Source: Citrus sinensis
Taxonomy: Eukaryota > Streptophyta > Magnoliopsida > Sapindales > Rutaceae
Reading direction: 5' to 3'
Assembly: GCF_022201045.2 (NCBI RefSeq)
Contig: NC_068560.1
Location: 29,777,501-29,841,500 of the forward strand
DNA length: 64,000 nucleotides
Position 1 is the stretch's first letter. Every line of letters begins with the position of its first letter. A model generated the notes under the pieces. That model made no database searches and was not told the origin of the DNA. It saw only the letters and a program-made list of their open reading frames with translations. Of the stretch, positions 4,051 to 61,043 are shown one piece after another. The position numbers were made by a program, and so were the translations under genes.

Positions 4051-4662
4051 ATGAATAATATACCAATCCATTTTCTATCCAAAATGGGAAAATATGAACT
4101 TGATATTCAAGGTAACAACATGAAAGTTACTGTGGTTGATCATGCTGCTCTGATAGATGACAACGTGGCTGCATTAAAGGCTTTATTAAAAAGGCAACGT
4201 GTAGTCGGTATTGATGTAAAGTTCAATCACAGATGCACCAAGAAAGCTGAAATGTTAATACTTTGCGCAGGAAATCGCTGCTTAATTATTCAACTATGCC
4301 ATCTAGGTCAAATTCCTGAGAGTCTGAAGAAGTTTCTTGCGGATGAGACAATTTGCTTTGTGGGAATTGAAATGAATGGTAAAGTTGATGGCCTAGGTAG
4401 GTGTAACTTGAGGTGCAAGACTGCGGTGGAGCTAGGGCATTTTGCTGCTAGGGTTCTTAAGAAGCCTCATATAAGTTCATTTGGTTTGGCAAAGTTGGCT
4501 AGGGAAGTTGGAATTCATAATTCTCTGGCTTCTGGTTTCAATGGGTATGCTCCAAGCTGGAGTGCTAGGGCGTTTTCAAATGAGCAAATTAAATTTGCAG
4601 TTCATGAAGCTTTTGCTTACTATGTTATTGGAGATAGAGTGTTGAGTTCGCTGGATGCCTAA
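4051..4662 (+). CDS. Werner-syndrome-like 3'-5' exonuclease homolog, likely catalytically dead
   Basis: A single-exon 203-codon frame with the layout of the plant WRN-exo/RNase D-like (DEDDy) family: a strand with V-V-G-I-D near residues 51-55, a conserved C-L-I-I-Q-L strand near 77-82, F-V-G near 103-105, and a C-terminal helix with F-A-V-H-E at 182-186. In active members motif I is D-x-E, motif II has an Asp after the F-V-G strand, and motif III is Y-x-x-x-D. Here motif I reads D55-V-K57, the motif II position aligns with K111, and motif III is F182...E186. Only the first Asp remains, so nuclease activity is unlikely; a binding or regulatory role, or simple decay, is possible. Length is close to the usual 200-240. 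The start could be 4051 or the in-frame ATG at 4084, where similarity to the other copies begins. It heads an array of broken copies running to 10.7 kb. Confidence 0.7.
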   Translation: MNNIPIHFLSKMGKYELDIQGNNMKVTVVDHAALIDDNVAALKALLKRQRVVGIDVKFNHRCTKKAEMLILCAGNRCLIIQLCHLGQIPESLKKFLADETICFVGIEMNGKVDGLGRCNLRCKTAVELGHFAARVLKKPHISSFGLAKLAREVGIHNSLASGFNGYAPSWSARAFSNEQIKFAVHEAFAYYVIGDRVLSSLDA

Positions 4663-5254
4663 CTATTAATGTAATTGCACGGCTCAGCTTTTTATTTTGG
4701 GTTTCGATTCATATGTATATATATGATGAGTGGTTATATTAATGTAAAATATGATAAGAGCTCGTAACCAACTTATTTCTAATTTGTTATGCTACTCTAC
4801 ACGCGCGCGCACACTTACACACACTAATTGGTTGGTGTAAATGGCGAATCAGGAATTAGCGTTTGTAAAAGTTGGTATAAATGTCGAAGCAGTGATTAGG
4901 GTTTATATGCACGATTAGGATTCTCTACTGATCTGATCATGCTCTGAGTAAATAAATCAATCACTGATTGGTTGTTAATAAATAAAAAATTAAAAGAAGT
5001 TAAATTTTATCCATATACTACTACTAAAAGATACATGGCAAAAGATCATTAAAAACTCAGTAATGCTCAGATCAGAAGAGGATCATGTTCCTTATATGCA
5101 ATTTTTTTTTTTTTGTTTCATTCGTCATGTGTTAATTATACACTAGTGACTTCTGCAATGGTATTTGAGCTTTTGGGTTCAATCCTTTACTCATCTTGAC
5201 TTGTGCAATTGTCTTTTTAATTAGGGTTGGTACGAGGAAACGTTGAGCGTGTGA

Positions 5255-5520
5255 TGAAATGGATATCAAGCCGGCGGTTGAATTGGAACAATTGGCAGCT
5301 GAGGTCCTAAAGAATGCTGACCTTATCAGTGCATGTGGATTAGCAGAGTTGGCTAGGCATGTTGTAATAAATAAATAGGGTTTCTCTTCTGGTGCTGGTT
5401 TAAAGTTGAACTATTTGACTGCGAAGCTAGGGCCTTTAAGCACGATCAAAAAAAGCATGCTGTTCATAATGCTTTTTATTGTTTTCTTATCGGGAACAAG
5501 TTGATAGAAATGTTAATAAG
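5255..5520 (+). pseudogene. C-terminal remnant of exonuclease-like copy (copy B)
   Basis: Translation shows the C-terminal half only: A-V-E-L-E-Q-L-A-A-E-V-L-K followed by G-L-A-E-L-A-R, closely matching the helix region of the intact copy at 4051. An in-frame stop follows I-N-K, and the rest of the frame is disturbed. The N-terminal half with motif I is absent. The sequence shows a partial duplicate in the same orientation as its neighbours. Confidence 0.65.
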
Positions 5521-5687
5521 TACTAATCGTATCTATCTAGCTAATGAGCTCATTACATGGATTTAACAGTTTACTATTAGATGTTTGTTGAATGTGAAGT
5601 GGGCTCTGTAAGTTTGTGGGCATGTCATATGTCCTAGCGTCTTGTTTATTGTCAAATATTGTATTGATAATTTTTGTTTTGTTTTGT

Positions 5688-5719
<32 letters not shown>
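5688..5719 (+). repeat. poly-G run of 32
   Basis: Thirty-two consecutive G residues preceded by TTTTGTTTTGT. This is the longest homopolymer in the window, lies between two decayed exonuclease-like copies, and could form G-quadruplex structures. Its true length is uncertain because such runs are hard to sequence. Confidence 0.9.
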
Positions 5720-5720
<1 letters not shown>

Positions 5721-6489
5721 AATTCCAAGAATCAAGCTATATTATATCTTAAGATTTTTATTGTATTTTTAGCGTCTTGTTTATTTTTATAGAAGGTGAT
5801 TGAACTTGATTGGTGCTATAACGATATTAATATGTGTATTAATTAACTATATATGAAATCAGGCTAAAAGATGTAAACTTGAATCGAGGCAAGTCGACGG
5901 AATTTCTGAGTGATAAAAGAATTATTTGGAGTTTGATTCTTATCATTTATAGTAAAAATGAGAAAAACAGAAGTTACGGTTAATTTTTCCAGAAGAGTTT
6001 GCATGAATTTAGTTAGTAGAAGCTTAAAAGACAATAGTATAAGAAATACAAAAGATTCAATGGAAGGTGCTCGTGACGGTGAATTTTGGGACCAACCCAA
6101 TATGAGTTAATGCATCGGTTAAATGACTGATTTTTTTTATTTTTTATTTCTTTTTGGTTTGTCTTGAGAAATAATAACTCGATACCAAGAGGGCATTGTC
6201 ATGATTAATGACACGGTTTAATAATTAAGAATATGTCAATTATATTGATCTCCTAAATATAAGGACCATTCTTAAAGATTACTGATACAATATTCAGATA
6301 ATGCCCCAAAATCGATGAACTTAAATTGTTCTTAATTATATTCTAGGATATCGGAATGTACCTACTGTTGGTTCATTTAATCCGAGCAACTCAATCACTT
6401 AAATTTCACTTAATTATACAGACAAATTCATTTTTAAGTTTCTACAATTATTTCTTCGTTAAAGATTATTAGCAACATATAAGACAAGA

Positions 6490-7130
6490 TTGAATCAAAA
6501 GAACAAGATGATGATACCCACCCAGGTCGTTTCAAAAATGGGTATCTGTGAGTTGGAAATTAAGGACTTTCAATTTGAAGTTAGCGTAATCGATAATGCT
6601 GCTGTGATGGACAAAAAAATTTCTGAACTCAGGGGGATGATTAGAAAGGCGACGCGTCGTAGGCTTCGATGTTAAGTTCGATTCCCAGACCAAAATTCCT
6701 GAGATGTTAATCCTTTTTGCAGTAGATCTCTGCTTGGCGGTTCAACTCTGTCGTTTGAGCAAGATTCATGAGAGTCTCAAAACCGTTCTTGCTGACGAGA
6801 CTATTTGTTTTGTTGGCATTGGCGCGGATGACAAAGTTAGAAGCATTCGCGGAAACTTAGATTATACTCCATTGTTATACTGGCATTGGTCTGGGTCGTT
6901 TGGCTGCTAGGGTTCTTAAGAAGCCAAAACTTACTGAACTGACAGGGATTGCGGAGTTGGCTAAGGCAGTTGGAATTGATCATAGTTCATTGTCTAATAA
7001 GGAAATAGAAGCAGTGACTCTACCGAACTGGAGGGCTTGGGTTTTCACAGATAAGCAGGTCCTGTATGCAGTTGAAGAAGCTCGTGGATGCTATGTTGTT
7101 GCTGACAAGATGTTGTCATTGCTTAACCGA
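6490..7130 (+). pseudogene. Broken exonuclease-like copy (copy C)
   Basis: Nearly full-length copy of the WRN-exo-like gene, spread over three reading frames. The first part carries S-K-M-G-I-C-E-L-E-I; after a frame change near 6655 come V-V-G-F-D-V-K-F and P-E-M-L-I-L, then C-F-V-G-I-G; after a second change near 6860-6900 come A-A-R-V-L-K-K-P and Y-A-V-E-E near the C-terminus. Motif I again reads D-V-K instead of D-x-E, and motif III keeps Tyr but has Glu for Asp. The copy is therefore both frame-broken and descended from an ancestor without motif I Glu. About 190 bases before its start resemble those before copy F (about 6290-6490 versus 10235-10450), so the duplicated unit included upstream DNA. 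Confidence 0.75.
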
Positions 7131-7429
7131 TGCCAATCTCTGAAATATGCTAATTATGATCTAGCTTGTGTTTGTTTTCTTAAGCAACTTTTTTTTTTCT
7201 CATCTTGATCCTTTTCTATACTTAATTACATATCTAATTATAAGTGTGGTACTGTCGCTTTTAATCGATATCTATTTTATAAAATAGAAGGTAAACAGTT
7301 TTTTTTTTTTAATGACTTTTAAGTCATAATTTTTATTCATTTATTTTTTTTATAGCTCCAATCTAATCGATCACATGGATTCGATTGATGCTAATTTATC
7401 CGAATTAAACGGGTCAGGTCACAGTACAA

Positions 7430-7622
7430 TGTTTCAGGGCTCCATGTGAAGATTAATAACCAGAGCGAAAAAGCAGAAATATATGCTAGTTCTTTGGGCA
7501 GGAAATTAAATCGTTGCTTGATCATTGAACTATGCAACGATTTTCCTCATTTTTTTCCTGGTAGTCACACGGAATTTCTGACCGACAAGAGTACTTGCTT
7601 TGTTAGTATAGCAATGGATATA
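7430..7622 (+). pseudogene. Short exonuclease-like remnant (copy D)
   Basis: In one frame this reads H-V-K-I-N near the motif I position, R-C-L-I-I-E-L-C for the conserved strand, and D-K-S-T-C-F-V-S for the motif II strand, followed by a stop. It matches the middle third of the intact copy. The motif I position again has Lys, and the preceding Asp is His. Both ends of the gene are missing. Confidence 0.6.
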
Positions 7623-7917
7623 TAACAAGGTTAAGAAGTATATGCAGTAGTTGTATAATGAAATACTGATGTTGAATTAGAGATATAATATTTTTAAAGT
7701 AAGAGATAAAATAAAAGATAAGAAAAATATAAAATTTAATGCCGTGTATGTATTTAATCGTATTAGAATTTGTATTTTTCTGTTATTAAACTTATTTTTA
7801 CTCCCTACCATATTAAAGGATGAGATTCCTTATTACAAAAGAAATATATATGTATATAAAAGGATCCAAAGGCAGAAGGCTCTTTAACAAGCAATTAGTA
7901 TCAAAATAAAGGGTGAG

Positions 7918-8215
7918 ATTAATTTGAAAAATTACGGAGTTAATATTAAGGTTAATGTAATGGATCATACAAGCTTGGTGAACAAGAATCTTTCGGAGTT
8001 AAAGTCTTTGTTGCGTGCGTAGGCATCGATTACTGTTGTCGACATTAAGTTGCATCCTCTGACCAGTAAAGAGGTCAATTGATCATTCTCTTTGTATGCA
8101 ATCGTTGCTTCATCATTCAAGGATGCCTTATTTACCAAGTTCCAAATACTCTTAACACAGTTTCTCGAAGACAAGAATATTGTTTTGTCGGTACAAGAGT
8201 TTTTAGTCTCAGTGA
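7918..8215 (+). pseudogene. Broken exonuclease-like copy (copy E)
   Basis: Translation gives N-V-M-D-H-T-S-L-V-N-K-N-L-S-E-L-K-S-L-L, a stop, then T-V-V-D-I-K-L-H and later R-C-F-I-I-Q-G-C and Y-C-F-V-G. These follow the order of the intact copy with an early stop and a frame change near 8080. Motif I reads D-I-K, the same Glu-to-Lys state as elsewhere. The C-terminal half is not detectable beyond about 8215. Confidence 0.65.
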
Positions 8216-8577
8216 CTCTGATTCCTGGATATATAGCAGCCATACATATTATCGTAGGCTTTGCAGCGGCGTTAATATGTTGGCCATTTGCATTGGATAC
8301 CCGCAGTTCCTAATCCCAATATCACCCTTTTATATTTTCCAATTCGACCCTTTTATCTGATTGTTTAATTCATGAGAAGTATTTTTTTCGTGCATGACCT
8401 GTTTATTGATAGAGCTAGCTAGTTAAAGACTACTCCAATTGTTTGGATAATCAAGATCAAGTTAAATCAGTGTATTCAATCTAACTCAATTTAATTGTAC
8501 TCAGTTTGATCAATATTTCATGAATTTTAGATGACATTAATAAATGAACATAACACAACACATAATGGAAAAAAGTC

Positions 8578-8716
8578 TTGGGTGCCTTTGGAGCACTACT
8601 TTTTTCCATTCATTCCCTATCACATGTATGTTTTAACCAATCACAATAATATATATACACATACGTGTCACGCAAAGCAATGAATGGAAAACAAGTGATG
8701 CTCCAGAAGCACCTAA
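8578..8716. mobile_element. Small inverted-repeat element (MITE-like)
   Basis: The two ends are imperfect inverted copies over about 35 bases: GGGTGCCTTTGGAGCA on the left pairs with TGCTCCAGAAGCACCT on the right, and both continue inward to CCATTCATT / AATGAATGG. The whole unit of about 140 bp can fold into one hairpin. I saw no clear target duplication, so the family is not assigned. Confidence 0.55.
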
Positions 8717-8921
8717 TTCATAACACTAATTCATCAACTCGATCAAAGTTATTTTTACAATTTTTATGATACTACGAATAGTTTATGGTTGGAAAAGAAT
8801 ATATAGTAGACAGGCACAATACATATATTGAGTTTGGATTCTTTATCTTTTTTATCAAAATTAGAAAAATAACATGTACACAAAGTTTATTTGTTGTTTG
8901 AATTAATTAAGTTTAATGGTT

Positions 8922-9187
8922 AACCACTGGGCCTTAGTCCAGTGGCTCGAGTCAGGCCTTCACAAGTGTGAGAAAATTGGTTCGAACCCCCACATAAATA
9001 TTGTGAGTGGTTTAGTTTAAATTTCCTTCATTATCTCTTGAGTGAAGTTAAAATCTCTCGAATATTAGAGATGACTAAACTATGTATTATTCTATATAAG
9101 AATTGTTGTAAACTAGTCCAAATTATTATGTGATTTTAAATACTAGTTATAGTATCATGTAATATGTTGTATCTTATTAAAAAAAAT
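8922..9187 (+). mobile_element. tRNA-derived SINE with exact 16-bp target duplication
   Basis: The 5' part carries a box A-like TAGTCCAGTGGCTCGAG and a box B GGTTCGAACCCCC, as in plant tRNA-derived SINEs. The 3' end is A-rich. The identical 16-mer ATTAAGTTTAATGGTT flanks the element at 8906-8921 and 9188-9203, the expected scar of LINE-driven retroposition. Its 3' half contains CTCTCGAATATTAGAGAT, also found in the SINE at 36821. Length is 266 bp. Confidence 0.85.
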
Positions 9188-9639
9188 ATTAAGTTTAATG
9201 GTTGGCCTTCAGTTTACGCTTACTGTGTTCGATCGGATTAAATTTGCCCTTCTCGGTCTATCTTCCCGATTATGTATCAAACTCCTTTGAGGAACTTATT
9301 CTTTCCAACTTTGATTGCTCTAGTGATCCTAAAATTTCCGAGGTTGTTCGGAAGAAATCATCTACCCTTTGGTGGAAGCTGGTTAATTGTGAACCTGAAT
9401 TAGAATCCTCTGAAAAAGACGACTTTGTCGTTTCTGGAATTGAATAAGAAACGACAAAGCAGACAAACAGATAACACTGCCATACGACAACAAGCCTCTA
9501 TCATACGAAAAGCTTAAGTAATGCACGTGACTTGCACGAGCACCAACGGAATCAAGCTTTAGTTAAACGGCAGCTACTGATGCCGTTTCAATCTGAAGAA
9601 CTGTTACAGACGGTTAGAGTTGGCGGGAATTTTCTGGGT

Positions 9640-9965
9640 TTGTTGAATAAGAGCTGGTTTACAGCTCACACATCTGGATCCCTTTCGAGTTGTATAAATA
9701 GCCTTCAGGGCTACTCTTAGAGTAGATCGTTCCTTGTAGCAATTACTCTAAAAACTTGTAATCTGTTAAAGCATAAAGAAAAGCTATGGCTTCTGTTTCT
9801 CAAGAGGATGTAGGCTGCAAAGCCGAACCTCTATAATCCCCTTTGCATTTCGTTTTGCTTTATCCTTTCTTAATTCCTGTCTCTGTTAAATACCCTTATT
9901 CTTAATCTGATTTCTATATTGATCCTTCATTCTTGCCTTATCAAGACCAGTGTATGGTGATTTCT
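9640..9965 (+). mobile_element. Fragment of an LTR, probably solo or truncated (fossil)
   Basis: A TATA-like GTTGTATAAATAGC is followed by an R/U5-like region with GTAGGC...GCCGAACC, a hairpin-forming motif seen in many plant copia LTRs. No matching second LTR or internal region of the same kind is visible nearby. Ends and target duplication could not be defined, so this is read as an old solo or partial LTR of the Ty1/copia type. Confidence 0.4.
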
Positions 9966-10002
9966 TGGGTTAAGGAATTAAGGTTATTCACTCTTAATTA
10001 CA

Positions 10003-10092
10003 ACAAAGCTTAATACAGATGGTCTGTCTAAAGGGAATCCAGTTTGTGCTGCAGGAGACGGTTTATTTCGAGACATGGTTGTTTTCATTCCT
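10003..10092 (+). mobile_element. LINE RNase H-like (RVT_3) scrap
   Basis: One short frame reads K-L-N-T-D-G-L-S-K-G-N-P followed by G-D-G and F-R-D, matching the start of the RNase H-like domain that ends many plant LINE ORF2 proteins (consensus K-x-N-x-D-G-A-x-K-G-N-P). About 30 residues are recognisable. Reverse transcriptase is not seen next to it, so it is a stray fragment. Confidence 0.5.
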
Positions 10093-10434
10093 CTTGGTGT
10101 TCACGACTTTGAGAAGGTCTTCATGCCACTTTACATGTACCCATTCTTGTCAGGATATTATTTTTGAAAATCCAAACTCACATTGAAAGGCTTTGTGCTT
10201 GTTTAATTAAGATATGTTGAATCAAATTAATTTAGGGATAATTTATAACTCCAAAATCAATGAACCTGATCAAATGGTTAATTAACATTCTGGAATATTG
10301 AACTGGCTGGTTCATTCAATCCATACAACTCCATCACTTGAACTTTGCTTCTATTTATACAAACAAATTCATGTAGAAGTATACACAAAACCATTTCGGT
10401 ATTTCCTAAAGATTAGTAGTAACAGAGAGATCAG

Positions 10435-10740
10435 AATATTGAATCAAAGGAACAAAATAATACCAGCCGATCAGATTTCATCTAAAATGGGTGTATATGA
10501 GCCTCAATTTAGGATTAATTTAGCCGATCATGTTGCTGCAATCAATAAGAAAATTCAGAATTCAAGACCTAAGAACACGACTTGTTGCAGGGTTCAATGT
10601 AAAGATCAATCCTCGGAGCGAACCAAGTGTTGATTTGTTAATCCTTTGTGCTGGAAAATGTTGCTTGATCATTCAAATATGACACTCCCGTGAAACTTCT
10701 TGCTGATAAATTTGTTTTGTTGGAAAGGGACGGATCACAA
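10435..10740 (+). pseudogene. Broken exonuclease-like copy (copy F)
   Basis: The start resembles copy C in both leader and protein (S-S-K-M-G-V-Y-E-P). After a frame change near 10590 it reads G-F-N-V-K-I-N at motif I, then L-I-L-C-A-G-K-C-C-L-I-I-Q, a stop and a degenerate L-A-D-K-F. The motif I Asp is Asn here and the Glu position is Lys. Similarity ends near 10735, immediately before the UNC-13-like pseudogene. Upstream DNA from about 10235 matches that of copy C. Confidence 0.65.
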
Positions 10741-11020
10741 ATTCAGTAGTACTGGAACAATCTTTGGTGAGAGGGACAAAGTTTTTTCAAGGGAATGGAT
10801 GTAGAAGACAAGATAATGCAAGGTGTTGAGGCAGATATAAAGGCGTTGTGTTCCACGGCTTGTTGACCGACGAGGATGGTGACCTTCGTTCGATCCATTA
10901 ATCTGTTACACATCCTCTACAGCAACAGTACAAGGGCTGGCCTTTTTCCAGAGTTCGCTGAACTTTGAATCGCGGTTGCATCTTTTAAGAGGAGGAAGTG
11001 TTGGAAGATAGTTGTGTCTT

Positions 11021-11360
11021 TGAAAGAAACTTAGTTCTATAGTGTTTGGCAATCAAGAAAATAAAAGAAAATGAAAGAGAACTCTTTAGAACCTTTTTAT
11101 TATTTTCAAGTTAATCAACTTAATGAATACAAATTGACATTTATACTAAGCTACAACCTGCTCCACACACACGAGTTTGTTACATCACATAACCATTTGC
11201 TGCATAACTAATTTTACACATCAGCTCAATCAGCTAACTAACTTTGACAGGTCAGCTCAGTGAGTTGATATGCTACAACCAGCTACACAGCAACAGCATG
11301 CTCTGCTCTAGCTATACAACAACATCATGCTCTGCTCCAGCTTCATCCAATTCACTAACA
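11021..11360 (-). repeat. 3' LTR of the copia element
   Basis: Begins TG and ends CA on the plus strand. It matches the LTR at 15943-16282 across its full 340 bp with about five differences. A polypurine tract (GAGGGGGGA on the minus strand) adjoins it at 11361-11372, marking it as the 3' LTR of a minus-strand element. Confidence 0.95.
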
Positions 11361-14300
11361 TCCCCCCTCAAGCTGAAATGTTTAGGATGAACATTCAGCT
11401 TGTCTATGAAGTAACTAAATTGTTTGAAAGTAAGAGCCTTAGTCAACACATCTGTTGTTTGATCTTGACTAGGCACATAGCATACTGGAACTTCTTTAGC
11501 AGTGACCTTATCCCGGATGAAATGTATATCCAATTCAACATGCTTAGTCTTAGCATGATAAACTAGATTATAAGCTAAAGCAATGGCCCCTTGATTATCA
11601 CACAACATCATAGGAGTAGAGCTTAATTTGATACTAAGTTCACCAAGTAAAGATTTGATCCAGGTAACCTCTGAAGCAGCATGAGCAAGAGATCTATACT
11701 CAGCTTCTGTGCTGGATCTGGAAACAACATCTTGTTTCTTTGATGACCAGGAAACAATATTAGGACCTAGATAAACAGCAAAGTCAGCCACTGACTTCCT
11801 ATCATCATGATCACAGGCCCAGTCAGAATCTGAAAAACAATGCAATTGCAGAGCTCCTTGATTGGAGAAATGCAGCCCCATATGGATAGTGCCTTTTAAG
11901 TACCTCAATAACCTTTTACATGCTTCCCAATGTTGAGTTCTAAGACTAGAAAGAAACTGACTTAACTTGTTTACAGAGAAAGCAATGTCAGGTCTGGTAA
12001 GAGTAACATATTGAAGAGCTCCTATAACACTTCGATATTGAGAAACATTTTCAAGTGGCTCTCCTGAGGCTTTGGTGAGATAAAAACCTGTAGACATTGG
12101 AGTGGGCATAAGACTGCAGTCTGTCATGCCATGTTTGTCCAGAATATCAGCAATGTACTTGGCTTGTGTCAAGGAAACCGCTTGTGAAGATTTGCTGACT
12201 TCAATCCCCAGAAAATAGTGAAGTTCCCCCAGGTCTTTTAAAGCAAAAGCTTGATGCATATTCTGGATAACTTGTTGAACTATGGATGGACTGGAACCAG
12301 TGATAATAATATCATCAACATAGACCAAAACAATAGTTAGATGACCACTGTTCCAGGCATAAAAGAGAGAGTTATCAGACCTTGAATGCTGAAAATGCCA
12401 CTGGAAAATTATTGCACCCTTAAACCTATCAAACCAGACTCTAGAAGTCTGTTTTAAGCCATACAAAGCCTTATTTAGCTTACAAACATGAGTAGGTTTA
12501 GTTGAATCAACAAAACCTTGAGGTTGAGCCATGTACACATCCTCAATTAATATGTCATTTAGAAAGGCATTGTTAACATTCACCTGCCTTACAACCCAGT
12601 GATTCAAAATTGCTAAGCTTAGAATAACTCTAACAGTGGAAGACTTAACCGCTGGACTGAAAGTTTCTGTGTAGTCAATCCCATGTGTCTGATGAAACCC
12701 TTTAACCACAAGCCTGGCTTTATACCTTGAAACTGAACCATCTGAGTTATACTTTACTCAAAATACCCACTTGCTGCCAACTATCTTCACTGGAGTAGCA
12801 GGTAAGACTAAATCCCAGGTGTGATTGGTTTTAAGAGCTAGATACTCTTCTTGCATAGCTTTATACCACATAGGATCAGAAAGTGCTTTGGAAACAGAAG
12901 TTGGTTCTAATTTTTGGGCTAGTAAAGCTGACGAATAAACCTTGGGCTTGAAGATGCCTGCTTTTGACCTGGTTATCATTGGATGACCAGATAATGCAGG
13001 TTGTGACAAAGTATGTGGAGGTGAATGATGGGATGGTGGAGAATGAGAAGAAGAAGAAGTGGAATTGAAATTATCAGAAAAGTAAACTGGAGTAGAATTT
13101 GGGAATGAAATAGAAGCATTTGATTGAGGATCATTAAGATGATGTTCTGATGATTCTGCTAAAGGTGCTTGTAACTGAGTAACAGAAGGAGTAGAAGAAC
13201 TAAAAGAATACTCAGAATGTGTGGATGACTGACAGCTTGAAAAGACTGAAGAAAAATCTGCTCTTGACTCATAAGGAAAAGAACTTTCTTCAAAGGTTAC
13301 ATGATTTGAAATATACACCTTCCTAGAAGAGTGAAGACACTGATACCCCTTGTGTTGTGAACTGTAGCCAATGAAAATACATCTAGCTGTTCTGAAATCA
13401 AACTTATGTCTATTGTATGGTCTGAGTGTTGGATAACAAGCACAACCGAAAATTTTAAGTGTTGAATAATCTGGTGGGGAATGAAACAACTTTTGAAAAG
13501 GAGAAATACTGTTTAGAACTGGAGTTGGAAGTCTGTTTATCAAATAGACAGCTGTATGGAATGCATTCCACCAAAATTTGAGTGGTAAATGTGCTTGAGC
13601 TAATAAAGTCAGCCCTAAATCAACTATGTGTCTATGTTTCCTCTCAATTTTGCCATTTTGATGATGAATGTGGGGACAAGGATGTCGAAAATGGATACCA
13701 GAATTAGTGAGTAATAATGAAAAAGTTCTGAACTCCCCTCCCCAGTCAGTTTGGACAGTTTTGATAGAAAGTTGAAGATGCTTTTCAATGAATGTTTTGA
13801 AATTGTTAAAAACTTCAAGAGCATCAGAGTTTGCTGACAAGGGAAATATCCAGGTAAACCTACTGTAATCATCTAGGATTGACAAGTAGTAATTATATCC
13901 TTGGGTAGAACAAACATGAGAGGGGCCCCAAAGGTCTGCATATATCAGTTGTAAAGGTGCTGAAGTTTTTGTTTCTACTGAATCAAAATGCAGCATGTGA
14001 TTTTTCCCATATTGACATGCTAAACAAAATTTCAAACTGTCAACTTTATTAAAAGCAGTAGAGTTGTTACAAGCTTTGAGAATAGTTTTGAGAGTATAAG
14101 ATGCTGGGTGTCCTAATCTTCTATGAAGAAGATTTACATCAATAGAACCCTTTGCAACAACTGACAGACATGACTTTTTATTCAACTCATAAGAACTAAC
14201 AGTAGAGAGCTGAGCAGAATTAAAAATAGGAGAACAAGCAAAAAGAGACTGAATTTTGTTTTGACCAACTGAACTGAGAAAGACTGAATAAGCAGCAGCA

Positions 14301-15930
14301 TGTGAAGAGACTCTATACAAGCCACCTTTAGCAACACTTTCAAGTAAAATTTTCCCTGTGTTCCTGGCCTTTATAACACACAAATCACCAAGAAATTCAA
14401 CAATAACTGGATTGTTAGCCAATAATTTTGAGATGCTAAGCAAATTCTTAGTAATAAAAGGGACATGAAGAACATGGTTAAGAAATAAAGATTGAGAAGT
14501 TGAAGTGTTTAGCACAACTGACCCTACATGTGTAATGGCTAATGCATTTCCATCTCCAACAAATAACTTTTCAGTACCAGTATAAGCTTTTGAATCCAGA
14601 AGCTTACCTAGATCATTTGTAATGTGGTTTGTTGCTCCACTATCAATATACCAAGAAGGATCTTCAATGTGTTCTGGTGGAAGTGAAGAAGACATAACTG
14701 AGCAAGATGAAGTACTTGACTGTCCAAGATTATTATATCCTTGACCAGAAACAAAATTAGATGATCCAGGGGTGAATGAGTAATAAGCAGATGGGTTGCT
14801 CTCTGGATATACTATATTTCCTTGATAGCCAAAACCCCTGGGAGCATTACCAAAACCAACATTTTGTCCAAACCCAGCATTTGAACCAAAACCTCCAAAA
14901 CCTCTTCCACTATTACCATTAAAGGCTCTTCCTCTACCGTATTGCCCTTGATTAAAACCTTTGCCACCATTCATATTACCTCTACCATGATTCCTCTGTG
15001 GAACAAAAGATGAGTTGAACCTATTTCTGCATCTATAGGCTGCATAACCAGGTATGAAGCAAATTTGGCAAACAACTTCAGAGGAACTACTACCATTGTT
15101 AAACTGACCATATCCATATCCATTAAAACCTCCATATCCAGAATTGTTACCACCTCCAGAGTTATTTCCATACTGTTTCTGAAAATTTCCATTATTCTTT
15201 CCAGCATATGAGTTCTTCTAAACAATATTTGCTGTCATGTTATGCATCACATCACCGGCAATTTTTCCTTTCTTTTGCTCAACTCTATTTTCATGATTCA
15301 ACAGCAAAGAATATAGTTCATCTAATGTTATTTTTTCACCTCGAGCTAACACAACAATGACTAAAGATTCATAATCTGATGAATCAAGACCAGTTAATAC
15401 ATGCATCACAAGATCATTTAACTCAACAGGTTTTCCAGCTAGAGCTAAAGTATCAGCTATACGTTTTACTTTTACAAAGTAATCAGACATATGCATTGCA
15501 CCTTTCTTAATAGTTTGAATCTGCATTCTAAGCGTTTGAATTCTAGCTTGTGATTGAGAGATAAACATACTAGCAAGAGTCTCCCAAAGCTGTTTTGAGG
15601 TTGTTGAGTCAATCACAGTAGCAAGCAGATTTTGCTGTATCGATGACATCATCCAACTCAGCAGAAGTTGATCAGCCTTCATCCAAGCTATGAACTCTGG
15701 ATTAACAGATCTGGATCCAGATTCAGTTAAAATTTCAGCTCCATTGTTGTTGCTAGAAGAAATAAATTGTTCAGGACATTCTCGATCACCATTGATAAAA
15801 CCTTCCAAACCATTCCCTTTGATCGAAGCTAGAATTTATGTGCGCCACAAAATATAATTGTTTTGATCTAGCTTTATAGACATAACAAAACTAAAAGAGT
15901 TGTTGTTTTGAATTGTATTTGCCATTTATG

Positions 15931-15942
15931 GCTCTGATACCA
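15931..15942 (-). other. Primer-binding site of the copia element
   Basis: TGGTATCAGAGC on the minus strand, complementary to the 3' part of plant initiator tRNA-Met and directly adjacent to the 5' LTR, as is standard for plant copia elements. Confidence 0.9.
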
Positions 15943-16282
15943 TGAAAGAAACTTAGTTCTATAGTGTTTGGCAAGCAAGAAAATAAAAGAAAATGAAAGA
16001 GAACTCTTTAGAACCTTTTTATTATTTTCAAGTTAATCAACTTAATGAATACAGATTGACATTTATACTAAGCTACAACCTGCTCCACACGCACGAGTTT
16101 GTTACATCACATAACCATTTGCTGCATAACTAATTTTACACATCAGCTCAACCAGCTAACTAACTTTGACAGGTCAGCTCAGTGAGTTGATATGCTACAA
16201 CCAGCTACACAGCAACAGCATGCTCTGCTCTAGCTATACAGCAACATCATGCTCTGCTCCAGCTTCATCCAATTCACTAACA
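15943..16282 (-). repeat. 5' LTR of the copia element
   Basis: Partner of the LTR at 11021-11360, same length and TG...CA ends. It is followed on the minus strand by TGGTATCAGAGC, the usual copia primer-binding site, which marks it as the 5' LTR. Confidence 0.95.
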
Positions 16283-34045: not shown

Positions 34046-36175
34046 TCTTCGATCTGTGTATCCGCTCACTCACTCTCAGATGTTAGGGTTTTGGGTTTAG
34101 CTCTTTTTGGAGAATTTGGAGATGAAAGCGTTAGCTAAAAGGGCTCCCCGGTTAAACGCTAAAAATAATTTAATATGGTTTATATTTTCTTTCACCAACC
34201 TAAAAATATTGATAATTATAATTAAATTACATTTAAGCAAATTAGAAATACACAAAATTTCTGTCTCTCAACAACCATGCGAGTTAGAACTTTTAAAAAT
34301 ATAAAATCCTCAAAATATAATAATTAAAATTAAATAGACATTTCCCCATATTTCTTCAATTAGTGCTTCCTTTATTTTTTTATCCACAAATTAAAAAAGA
34401 CATAATTCACATGTTAAGAAATTAAGATCCAAATTTAATACCTTTTAGTTGCTTATCAACTGGTAGTTGAGAAAATAATAAATTCCTCGTCCATTATAAC
34501 ATTTCAAAACGTAAACATAAATATTTAAACTTTTAATTCCCAAAATTAACATCAAGAACTAATGTGTTTTGTACTATGCAATTATGGGAAAAATTATTAT
34601 GCAATTGTTAATTGGGTAAGACTGATTACACAAAAAATTACTCTAACCACTCTAATTTTATTATAAAAATATCCATTATATGAATTACTATTATTAAGGG
34701 CAATTTATTATAAGTCAATATTATGTAATTATTTTGAACACCCATATAACATACTCATTATCTAGTGTATATAATTTTCATACTTTAAACTTTTAAATTT
34801 TTATTTTTTACATCTTAATATATCCTTGGATAAATAATGATGAAATCAATATTTTTATTTTCATAACTAAAATAAATTTTACACTCATTATTTTTTTAAA
34901 AGAAAATAAAAACAAATTATACAAAAGTACTGAAAAGCATCTTTTTTTTTTTTGTTTTTGCTTTTGACCTCTTCTTTTACTCCGTCTTCTTCTAATCTAA
35001 TGTTGACCACAAATAAACAAAATATTAATAACTAAATTTTATAAAATAATTTGCTTACAGCTTGACTTGATTATATTGTTATAAAAATTTAATAAATCTC
35101 TTAAAATTGGCTGCATTGAATGGCTTTATTGGTATATTAAGTAAATAAAGTTAATTAATTTAAACCGATTGAGTAAGATTTTTTAAATGAAATTTAAAGA
35201 GCATATAAAATGAAAATTTGATTTTTTAAAATTATATATGAATTTACGAAGTAATAAAGTGATCAAATTAATTTTTTTTAGTGTAAATAACCTCATCTTT
35301 ATCGACTTTTTAATTTTATATCGATTCATATTTTTATTTATGAAAAAAAATTAAAACTTAATCTTTTGAGTTGTCTTGTGAACGCTCATGATAAATCTGT
35401 TCAATGAAATGTTTTTACATAATTATCTTCATTAAATAAAGAGTAATGATACAATTACAAACTCTTATACAAATTTATTTTATATAAACTGACGTGTCAT
35501 TAATTCAATGGTTTAATGAAAATATAAAATAATAAAAATCAAATCATGTGAACCGAATGATATTTAATTCGACTAATCTTATTATGTCACATTAGTTTAT
35601 ACAAAATAAATTTGTATAATAATTTGTGACTATATCATTACTCTTAAATAAATAACCTAACATTTGAAAGATATGATTACATTTTTCATGTGCAATTTTT
35701 ATTGTAGATCTAAAAGTAGTTGATTTTTAAAAAATTAATTGGTTCACCAATCTTTTTTGTTTCCTTGTAGAATGTTATTTTGTTAAATATAATTACGGGT
35801 CCAGCCACCTACCATGCAACAGTTGTAAATTGTCCATATAATTAATTACCTGCAAACATTATTGCTTGTACATGTTCTTCTAAAAGTAATATTGAAAAAA
35901 TTGCTATTTAATTTTCTCATAGCAAGAAAGAAGCAAACAAAAATAGGGAAAAAAATAAAAGAGTAATAATAATACCAAGTCTACTAAAAAGTTAAAAACT
36001 TAAGACACATGCAGTACTGTACTGTTCTAATCAACGGCGAATTAGAACAAACGAGCCAACGACCTAGAAATAACCGCCACGTGACTGATCCAGCAACTCA
36101 AACAGACTGACGACGTCAGAATCCGACACTCAAGATCCGCGTGACGTCACCAATGTCGGAAAGTGTCCGAAGATT
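34046..36175. other. AT-rich intergenic region
   Basis: No gene is seen. It includes the promoter side of the mS41 gene (a short leader before 34045 is likely), a MITE at 35440 described separately, and otherwise low-complexity AT-rich sequence. Confidence 0.5.
35440..35644. mobile_element. MITE with ~60-bp inverted ends and 7-bp target duplication
   Basis: The ends AGAGTAATGATA and TATCATTACTCT are inverted, and the pairing continues inward for about 60 bases (ATACAAATTTATTTT on the left against AAAATAAATTTGTAT on the right). TAAATAA flanks both sides (35433-35439 and 35645-35651). Length is 205 bp. No coding capacity. Confidence 0.8.
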
Positions 36176-54150: not shown

Positions 54151-55082
54151 ACATTGCCTTGAAATTTCTGAGTTGAGAAGCCAAAACGGCAGCTTATTGG
54201 TGCATGAAATCACTTCCAAAAGCATCTTTTGAATTAGATTGGTTTCATTTTGCCCCGCGACAGTTATTATTATACAAATATGGGATTACATTGTATGCAA
54301 GTTGTTTTGTAAATTTTTGTCCTTCCAATTCATTCCTGGAAAAGCCAAATAAGTAGTGGAGAAAATAAGTTGGTAACACTTAACACAATGACTGATTGTT
54401 ATTATCCACAGTATAGGTTGTGCATACACTTCCAAGTTTCTGTCAGTACTCAGTAGTGGGTTTGAGTCTAATCGCCAGGACAGAACCACATAAAAGTTGG
54501 ACCAACTATTCAGAGGAGGATACGTAGGTCCTTCTGTCGGTTGGTATGGTTCTGAAGATCATTAACTAGGTTTGGTCGCCCATTACTACGCGGCCACTCA
54601 ACGGTAAGCCTGAAACCAAACCAGAATTTAATTGGGTTTAGTAATTAATTTCTTTTTCTCTATCTCGAGGAATGTTTAGTGGGACCCAGATGGATTTGCG
54701 TGGCCCTAGCAAATTAAGGACACGTGTCCTTTTCTCTGCATTCTGCTTTGCTGTATAATTAGTAACTGACAAGTGTGGTAGGATGGATTATCAATAATCC
54801 CTTTATATCGCAATAACACACTTTATGTAATGGACTAATGCCTTTAAAACACTTGTTCAATCTATTTTTTGGAAAAAAAAATAAAAGGCGGCACATTACA
54901 ATAAAAATTGAGTCAATACTAAATTACAATTATTAAAAATATTGTACAAGTAAATTATTCATAGACAAGTCACCAAATTACATAAATTTATTAGAATCTA
55001 TCTGATCTATTCTATTAAGTAATTTGAATATTTAAATAAAAAATTTAATTCAAAATAAGCTAAATACATCACATTAATATAT
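54151..55082. other. Intergenic region after ICP55
   Basis: Begins with the probable ICP55 3' untranslated region and then becomes AT-rich. No gene is seen. Confidence 0.5.
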
Positions 55083-55225
55083 AGGGAAAAACTGTGGTGC
55101 AACTGTGGTACCGTGCCATAGTTGCACCCAGCCGTTGGCTTCCAATGAACCCCACTTATCTAAGTGGATTCAATGGCTGGATGCAACTGTGGCACAGTAC
55201 CACAGTTGCACCGTAGTCGGACCCT
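55083..55225. mobile_element. 143-bp hairpin MITE
   Basis: The unit starts AGGG and ends CCCT. The inner arms GTGCAACTGTGGTAC and GTACCACAGTTGCAC are perfect inverted copies, with a second imperfect pair inside, so the whole unit folds into one long hairpin. AATATAT adjoins both ends (55076-55082 and 55226-55232), a possible 7-bp target duplication in AT-rich sequence. No coding capacity. Confidence 0.75.
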
Positions 55226-55748
55226 AATATATAAGTGAACATATTAATTTTAGAAATCAATTTCTGAGAAGAAATCTCAATTTTACTTGTAAACATCATA
55301 ATAAATAGGCTGAGAAAAACTAGTAATGGTATTTATTTTCTTGAATCTGATTAGAAATAAAATTTTGAATAAGAAATATATCTGTAAAGTATTATGCTAT
55401 ATTAAACAAGAAGCGTTATAGTTAATTTAAATACTGAAAGCGAGTGATGCGAACACTGCTCTACTAAATTTACGAAATGGTCCATAAACATTTTTCAATT
55501 TTCAAAAACACAATGCTTATTCATCTCGCATTCTAAGAAAGCATATACTAATTTTGTTAACAATCCACACATAGGTGCTAAGATTTTCAGGATTTTTTTA
55601 AATATGAAGGGGTTTCTTTTCTTCCCCATTAAAACGTTTCACCAACTTGCGATAGAATAATAATTAAAAAAAAAATGTTTATAGTGTGATGTCGTTATGA
55701 ATTCTTAAGACAAAAATTATTTTTTACTCGGGCCCGGATATTCAAAGC

Positions 55749-59076: not shown

Positions 59077-61043
59077 TCATACCTGGGAAGCTGTTACCCA
59101 TTTGCCATTAATCCAGTCCTGATGTAGCCTTAAATCAGAATGCTCAAACGTGAGTTCCTCCTTGGTAGTCTTAAAATAGACGACGTACTTTGAGTTGCTA
59201 CAAACCTTAGAAATCACACCCACCCACCAACCATCATTGTACAAGGCATCAACCTCATCAAGCTTATTGAAACGATCAACCATTAGAGTTTCTGGCGGAG
59301 AAGGTCTTATGTGTTTAATATCAATCTCTTCCTTCAAAAACTCTTTATCATCTTCTGTTCTCAAGCTCTGATACTCAACGAGATACTTGTCCTTCCCTGT
59401 TGGTTCAACAATAGTTGCAGCAAACCAAGCACCTTGAAAACCATCTTCATCACTGCTAACCTCAACTAATGTCCCCTTGCAAAATAGCCCTTCTGTGTTA
59501 AATTTGTCAGGCTCCTCTTCTGGTTTAGAATTCGAAAATAGCTCTTCAGTTTTAACTTTGTCAGGCTCCTCTTTAGAATTAGTTGCCAACTTCTGCAGTT
59601 CCAGATTTGAAAAGCCAAAATATTAACCAACTAACAAGAAACAGAATAAAAAATTATACCACAAAAACAAAAAAGGAGAATGGCATATGATTATAAGAAC
59701 GATGTTTCTTGAGAAAAAAGGCCGTCTGCACCCTTTGCATTCACCACCTCATATCTCTAATTTACCAGAACCTATCACTTGACTATTTATGTATCAAAAA
59801 GCATATAATTATTAAGCTTCAGAATCGTCATAAAAGTCAATTCCCAAGTTTGATACATCCAATCAGTTTGTTACTTTCAAGTAACCAAAGTACATCAGCA
59901 TTACAACCAACACCAAAGGGAGAAAGAAAAAGGTTTCTGAAAATAAGTAGAAAATTTAACCAGTCCTTCTTTCTCAATAGAGTTAAATATCCACAGACTA
60001 ATTCCCTTAATATTACATTTTATGTTTCTAATTCTAAAACCAAAGGCAGTTGACAGGGAGGTTTCCTCACAGCCAAAGACCAACAGCTACCATTGTGAGT
60101 TAATAAACAATTCAATCAAGAAGATCCGTTTGTTTATCTTTAAAAATCAGATAAAGACATTTTAAGCCTTCAGTATATAACACTCGAATTTCCGTTCAGA
60201 CTTCTAGCCATCTTTTCATAGTTACACTCGTCTGTCCAATTTTTACATGCCTTTAATTATCAGGAATCCAAGGGTAACCCACTACAATTGACTTTCACTA
60301 GCATATGTTAACCTGGTCTCATTAAATAATGATGCACGCCAGGCCAATTCACAATCACACCAGGCATGAAATCAGTCTATTCTTCCAAAACCCAATAAAT
60401 ACTGTCAATTCTCCCACACACACACAGACACACGAACATACAAAAAGAGGCCAAAACTACTTTCCCAAAATCAAGAATTCAACATGCATCACATACTATA
60501 CCATCAAATCAATTCGAAATTAAAGCAATCTAAGAAAAAGAATGCTACCTCAGTCTCAGTATCATCTTCCAAAGGAGGTTTCCACTCACCCTTAATCCAC
60601 TCTCTATGCAACCTCAAATCCTCAGCAGCAAACTTAATCTGCTCCTTCGAATTCCTGAAATAAACAGCAAATTTTCCATCATCAACCTCAGTTATAACCC
60701 CTTCCCACCACCCATCATTATAAAACGCATCAACTTCTTCCCCTAACTTAAACTGCCTCTCCTTCTCTCTCGGCGCCAACGGCCTCAGCAGATCCAAATC
60801 CACCACTTCCTTCAAGGGCTTTTTCCCTGCTTCGGTTTCGAACAGGCGGCTGTATTCGACCAAGTACTTTGTGGGGTTTCTTGCCATTGGCCGCCGAATT
60901 ACGGTGCCCATAAACCATGAACCGCGAAATCCGACGTCGTTCGAGGAGATTTCAACCTGTGAGCCGGGATTGAAGGGCGTTCCTGAGTTGTCGGTTCTGG
61001 GTTTCGGACTCTTAGTCAGTTTGGATTTGGGTTTTCGAGGCAT
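59077..61043 (-). CDS. Agenet-domain (DUF724-like) protein
   Basis: Exon 1 (61043-60549) and exon 2 (59592-59077) on the minus strand, joined at GACTGAG/GTAGC and CTGCAG/AAGTTG, give about 336 residues. Each exon encodes a pair of agenet (Tudor-like) modules: the first of each pair has F-R-G-S-W-F or F-Q-G-A-W-F-A-A-T, followed by K-Y-L-V-E-Y, and the second has V-D-A-F-Y-N-D-G-W-W or V-D-A-L-Y-N-D-G-W-W and V-Y-F. Agenet domains are plant relatives of Tudor and chromatin/RNA-binding modules. The N-terminus is basic (P-R-K-P-K-S-K-L-T-K-S), suggesting nuclear location. The frame ends at 59077, but the last codons contain CAG/GTATGA, a usable donor, so a short further exon near 58980-58900 is possible. 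Arabidopsis At1g09320 is the likely counterpart. Confidence 0.82.

Follow-up and report, generated by a model that had tools for sequence, protein, structure and literature searches.

In this study, we analysed a 64,000-nucleotide window of the Citrus sinensis genome (C5:29777501-29841500; 299.7 Mb in 11 contigs), which contains an array of six copies, A to F, of a gene resembling the exonuclease domain of WRN. Five of the copies are decayed. The sixth, copy A, looks like a retained plant WRN exonuclease relative with a metal site that had been rebuilt by the time duplication began. This assessment rests on the catalytic motifs of the copies, on codon models of selection, on a protein tree with relatives from the same genome, and on comparison with known systems, including the Arabidopsis exoribonuclease RICE1.

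Results

The array and its intact copy

The frame of copy A, one of 14 open reading frames of at least 150 amino acids in the window, scored 25.3 bits against PF01612 (3'-5' exonuclease; curated cut-off 23.6), with residues 38-187 aligned to positions 9-158 of the 173 in the profile, and this sequence match above the cut-off places it in the family. No frame-breaking change was found across its 203 codons, and the predicted protein is small and basic (isoelectric point 9.2). A tblastn search of the window with this protein detected the five decayed copies, all on the plus strand and between positions 5268 and 10724 (Table 1); the remaining six matches had expect values (E) of 2.0 or more.

Active-site motifs

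DEDDy exonucleases are defined by the residues D-E-D-D plus Tyr. Copy A carries Asp55, Lys57, Lys111, Glu186 and Phe182 instead and is, judged from its sequence, a relative by descent of these enzymes and not a canonical one. Motif I reads D-V-K in copies A and C, H-V-K in D, D-I-K in E and N-V-K in F; copy B, consisting of the C-terminal half only, has no motif I. In all five copies covering the motif the Lys codon is AAG, although the neighbouring Asp is changed in two of them. Of 53 codons covered in A, C, D, E and F, three are identical throughout, namely those of Lys57, Cys77 and Phe103, the latter two being also invariant in a six-member family alignment; this comparison was made post hoc on data already seen and is no more than suggestive. 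The motif II Asp position is occupied by Lys in A, C and F and, by alignment, by Ser in E, while D is missing there and the letter in B (Glu) lies outside its reliable part. At the position of the last Asp, A and C have Glu and B has Asn; E and F end before it, and the letter in D (Ala) lies outside its aligned core. In the simplest history, as judged directly from the letters present in the copies, the ancestor of the array probably already had the altered site with Lys, Lys and Glu. An AlphaFold2 model built from copy A and seven fragments of its own array had a mean predicted local distance difference test score of 38.6 and was unusable.

Table 1. Copies of the WRN-exo-like array, active-site positions of copy A and a shared flank (window coordinates)
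Feature	Position	Strand	Description
Copy A, intact	4051..4662	+	single open frame, 203 amino acids, WRN-exo-like (DNA_pol_A_exo1), altered active site
Motif I, copy A	4213..4221	+	Asp55-Val56-Lys57 (GAT GTA AAG) instead of D-x-E
Motif II position, copy A	4381..4383	+	Lys111 (AAA); Asp in D-x-E paralogues
Last motif, copy A	4594..4608	+	Phe182...Glu186 instead of Tyr...Asp; Glu as RICE1 E187
Copy B, decayed	5268..5515	+	C-terminal half only, two frames; tblastn E 1.9e-7
Copy C 5' flank	6306..6512	+	69% identity over 222 aligned columns to copy F 5' flank (10251-10461)
Copy C, decayed	6514..7127	+	full length, three frames; tblastn E 7e-38
Copy D, decayed	7404..7619	+	N-terminal half; tblastn E 8.6e-8
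Copy E, decayed	7932..8192	+	N-terminal half with stops; extent by DNA alignment; tblastn 8019-8192, E 5.5e-6
Copy F, decayed	10457..10757	+	N-terminal half; extent by DNA alignment; tblastn 10569-10724, E 1.6e-6

Relatives in the genome and phylogeny

A whole-genome search with the copy A protein yielded 15 matches, of which eight fell in the array, six were relatives on contigs C3, C6 and C8, and one was noise (C6:738341, E 3.6). The best match outside the array was L011 (64.4 bits, 32% identity). A scan of the genome with PF01612 listed nine places, the array not being among them, and the counts from genome scans are therefore lower bounds. Four paralogues, L011, L013, L014 and L015, share the domain and the single open frame with copy A and are 209-254 amino acids long. 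All four retain the acidic residues, with the Glu of D-x-E, Asp at motif II and Asp at the last position where copy A has Lys, Lys and Glu; the Tyr of the last motif is kept in three of the four and replaced by His in L015. In a profile comparison, copy A together with the array fragments matched these paralogues with a probability of 99.4 (E 4.9e-21, 185 columns). When the four D-x-E paralogues were used to scan contigs of prokaryotes, 29 pattern matches and no relative resulted, and the only two matches of an NCBIfam search were both far below the cut-off.

Two further relatives also have Lys at motif I. Positions 1525-2121 of locus L017 (G000 C3:46238832-46239428) form an open WRN-exo-like frame of 198 amino acids, which scored 23.4 bits against PF01612, slightly below the cut-off of 23.6. 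Its motif I is N-C-K (AAG), and the motif II Asp is gone as well. Since L017 groups with the D-x-E paralogues L011 and L014 (88% support), its Lys is a separate gain on that tree. L016 (positions 1501-2019; G000 C8:19438466-19438984) is a broken copy, close to L013 and containing three stops; its motif I reads D-T-K (AAA).

The protein tree comprised 14 sequences, was unrooted, and included the ends of the copies unmasked. Four partial matches among the nine PF01612 places (two each on contigs C3 and C2), C6:738341 and the broken L016, which was used for its motif only, were left out of the tree and of the rate tests. The array formed a group of its own, split from the remaining sequences at 99% support, and a single origin of the array is thus well supported. 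Copy A had the shortest branch (0.21), compared with 0.67 for C, 0.68 for F, 0.78 for B, 1.20 for D and 1.60 for E. Array and paralogues together were separated from RICE1, WRN and EXD2 with 67% support only.

The initial annotation, made from the DNA letters, had reported Lys at motif I in the intact copy and in C, D, E and F, and, in the intact copy, the lack of an Asp at motif II and at the last position. Both observations were confirmed, the first with the motif letters as written and AAG in five of five copies, the second as Lys111 and Glu186. Its proposal that the shared Lys was already present in the common ancestor gains support from the same codon in all five copies and from the 99% split of the array.

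Selection on copy A

The ratio of nonsynonymous to synonymous substitution rates (dN/dS) was estimated with codon models, in MG94 and GY94 versions, that allowed a separate value for copy A; masking was applied to copy B ahead of codon 120 and to whatever lay beyond the aligned cores in C, D, E and F. With the array only, dN/dS under MG94 was 0.148-0.169 on the branch of A, compared with 0.546-0.577 on the others, over four topologies; the likelihood ratios against dN/dS = 1 for A were 16.1, 16.1, 23.5 and 11.0. The corresponding GY94 estimates were 0.096 for A and 0.426 for the rest, with a ratio of 16.1, while the subsets ABCF and ACF gave 0.117 (ratio 7.1) and 0.148 (ratio 18.7) for A. Compared with one common dN/dS, the GY94 ratios for A were 9.0 (full set), 3.0 (ABCF) and 4.7 (ACF). 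A site bootstrap (n=200) gave an interval of 0.03-0.24 for dN/dS of A, with one replicate of 200 exceeding 0.5, and none of 300 simulations with A neutral reached the observed ratio of 16.1 (maximum 9.61).

Further fits used five paralogues as outgroups and gave the outgroups, the stem, the decayed copies and A each a rate of their own. In all six trees with at least three array copies, A was estimated at 0.114-0.185 with ratios of 6.95-22.4 against 1. Purifying selection on copy A since the copies split is thus supported by these fits. Two of the features expected of a pseudonuclease, a nuclease fold that selection retains once catalytic residues are gone, are seen here: catalytic residues are replaced and, the two-copy fits discussed below aside, purifying selection followed the change. 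Among 20,000 simulations of a neutral 203-codon frame, 0.4% remained free of stops at 0.3 substitutions per site; at 0.7, none did.

History of the decayed copies and surroundings of the array

For the branches other than A, dN/dS was 0.40-0.59 in fits with at least three array copies and 0.255 in the A-C tree. Relative to A, frame-breaking insertions or deletions made up two of six in C, four of six in D, two of three in E and five of seven in F, the others (four of six, two of six, one of three and two of seven, respectively) being multiples of three. Because of the intermediate dN/dS on the non-A branches and the four of six length changes in C that keep the frame, some array copies were probably working genes before they decayed. 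At least copy C seems to be a gene that worked and then broke, and the array would therefore be a birth-and-death family and not a series of copies that never functioned.

The 5' flanks of C and F are alike over about 210 bases (69%), which is similar to the 67% of their coding sequences. A promoter common to the whole array was considered and rejected: the sequence upstream of copy A had no significant match to the flanks of C or F (best E 0.31). Between copies B and C lies a run of 32 G (5688-5719), possibly a sequencing or assembly artefact. Just past copy F, a long terminal repeat (LTR) retrotransposon occupies 11021-16282 on the minus strand and is of Copia type by reading of its proteins. 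Its LTRs (11021-11360 and 15943-16282) are 98.5% identical over 340 bases, so that the insertion is probably young.

Besides WRN-exo-like genes, the window contains Agenet, DUF538 and POT-family genes. Two adjoining Agenet-domain frames on the minus strand (59077-59589 and 60504-61043) apparently form a tandem pair. Self-complementary stretches at 35431-35653 and 55077-55232 (72-73% over 229 and 168 aligned columns) are possible transposable elements of the hairpin type.

Discussion

A possible retained binding subunit with a probably rebuilt site

We lean towards the reading that the site of a plant WRN-exo-like gene was rebuilt before duplication, and that copy A has been retained as a non-cutting subunit that binds or competes. 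In the founder, the motif I Glu and the motif II Asp would each have been replaced by Lys and the last Asp by Glu. The two lysines would substitute for the metal ions in the two-metal pocket, and the copy A protein would no longer cut by the usual two-metal route while still holding nucleic-acid 3' ends or a partner protein. Some of the copies would have been functional for a time before decaying, with the gene at 4051 as the survivor. Loss of metal-dependent cutting in copy A is likely, since it lacks, unlike RICE1, the motif II Asp as well; a binding role is our best guess, known pseudonucleases being precedents.

Several results weigh against this reading. In the ABCF subset, copy A did not differ significantly from one common dN/dS (3.0), and 24 of the 300 null simulations gave an estimate for A as low as the one observed. 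In the outgroup tree with A and C only, dN/dS of A was 0.417 and indistinguishable from 1 (ratio 0.19), and a cruder fit of A and C with one background rate gave 0.715 (ratio 0.03), 1 again not being rejected. The cruder fit likewise failed to reject 1 for the open D-x-E paralogues L014 (0.738, ratio 0.16) and L015 (0.633, ratio 0.28) and is therefore read as lacking power. The frame stayed open in 18-24% of simulations at the lengths fitted under neutrality (0.063-0.077), so that the open frame alone proves little. Support of the nodes within the array was 34-76. Finally, RICE1 has an unusual site and yet still cuts (PMC5451212). The low dN/dS of the array stem (0.068 in the cruder fit, 0.09-0.11 in the outgroup fits) and of L017 (0.06) was given no weight, because these branch lengths sit at the set limit.

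Copy A could be functionless, having lost its constraint recently or kept its frame open by luck, with all copies being relics; five of the six copies are indeed broken, and the two-copy tests are not decisive. We consider this unlikely given a dN/dS of 0.10-0.19 on the copy A branch, for which 1 was rejected in all but the two-copy fits, and 203 codons without a frame-breaking change, although a very recent loss of function is invisible to dN/dS. A D-x-E founder whose decaying copies each acquired the Lys on their own is highly improbable. A single G-to-A change turns Glu into Lys, as seen in L016 (DTK) and L017 (NCK), but AAG stands in five of five array copies despite the changed Asp beside it in two, and the Lys at motif II is also common to A, C and F. 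Common ancestry of the motif I Lys fits best despite the ease of the change, because all five copies carry it.

Copy A might also have remained a nuclease, its site rebuilt in the manner of RICE1 and perhaps independent of metal, with the active site lying at a joint between subunits. Asp55 is retained in copy A, Glu186 occupies the position of E187, and RICE1 is active in the absence of the motif I Glu and not stopped by ethylenediaminetetraacetic acid (EDTA) (PMC5451212). Moreover, Arg50 of copy A aligns with RICE1 Arg47, on which the RICE1 hexamer depends, and Lys123 with Arg127. The equivalent of Asp114, however, is Lys111, and D166, K102, E113 and K119 of RICE1 are not kept (F163, E99, G110 and G116 in the alignment). 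Copy A scored 64.4 bits with L011 but 18.1 with RICE1, values that come from different programs and databases, and the tree placed the array with the paralogues and apart from RICE1, if only weakly (see above). On this evidence, continued nuclease activity appears quite unlikely.

Of the further claims of the initial annotation, that the intact copy was kept agrees with the dN/dS check, which indicated purifying selection after the split in the array-only fits and in six of seven outgroup trees. The description of this copy as catalytically dead, drawn from the D-x-E rule alone, goes beyond the evidence, RICE1 being active with D-x-Tyr and a final Glu. Independent decay from a useless founder is too simple in view of the non-A dN/dS and of the in-frame length changes in C, though most length changes in D, E and F do break the frame.

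If the copy A protein binds but does not cut, plants would have in it a DEDD-fold binder related to RICE1, and one could ask whether proteins of this sort are in competition with active exonucleases in pathways of small RNA or DNA. In any case, a missing D-x-E alone is insufficient for calling a plant WRN-exo-like gene dead. A wider proposal, which we offer tentatively and regard as doubtful, is that plants repeatedly made metal-free binders from WRN-exo-like enzymes by placing a lysine in the two-metal site. At least two open genes in this genome would be examples (4051, D-V-K/K/E; L017, N-C-K). The array lysine would then be a selected feature, the charge of the pocket being fixed within one chain as RICE1 does with the basic residues of its neighbour, and the array would represent what birth and death have left of a small binder family.

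Comparison with known systems

RICE1 (At3g11770) and RICE2 (At5g06450) are, like copy A, small plant proteins of the DnaQ fold. RICE exoribonucleases are further characterised by a hexamer whose active sites lie between subunits and by binding of AGO. The active site of RICE1 comprises D52, Y54, D114 and E187, and the enzyme cuts single-stranded RNA, EDTA not inhibiting it (PMC5451212). The motif I Glu is thus replaced (Tyr54) and the last Asp changed to Glu, as in copy A; in contrast to copy A, Asp114 is kept, the protein is an active exoribonuclease, and the basic residues are contributed by the neighbouring subunit, whose Lys102 and Arg127 interact with Asp52 and Asp114 (PMC5451212). Compared with this active-site set, D55 and E186 of copy A match, whereas K57 and K111 differ. 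In the reverse genome search, a 123-residue stretch of RICE1 matched eight places: the known paralogues account for six (best E 3.1e-6), copy A (E 0.79) and a weak place on contig C5 (E 3.2) for the other two. The score of copy A here and its 18.1 bits with RICE1 tend to speak against close kinship of the two, which the tree keeps apart at no more than 67% support. Apart from the RICE paper, no report on plant WRN-exo-like proteins with altered sites was found among the titles and abstract openings covered by a literature search that included few subscription journals.

The best Protein Data Bank profile match of the six-member family was the human WRN exonuclease domain (2fbt, E 3.5e-26). Over the stretch that aligns, WRN retains its DEDDy residues, and it carries the domain as part of a helicase protein, whereas copy A is a lone domain with an altered site. 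Pseudonucleases described as RNA-binding belong to other families, Maelstrom to the MAEL domain of animals and Ssd1/Dis3L2 to the RNase II family in fungi. Metazoan Maelstrom is described as RNA-binding after loss of the catalytic residues, with RNA binding and inactivity measured for the Bombyx protein (PMC4408791). Likewise, the Ssd1/Dis3L2 pseudonucleases are described as RNA-binding proteins that lost their catalytic residues, a loss that occurred at least four times in fungal Dis3L2 (PMC8097288).

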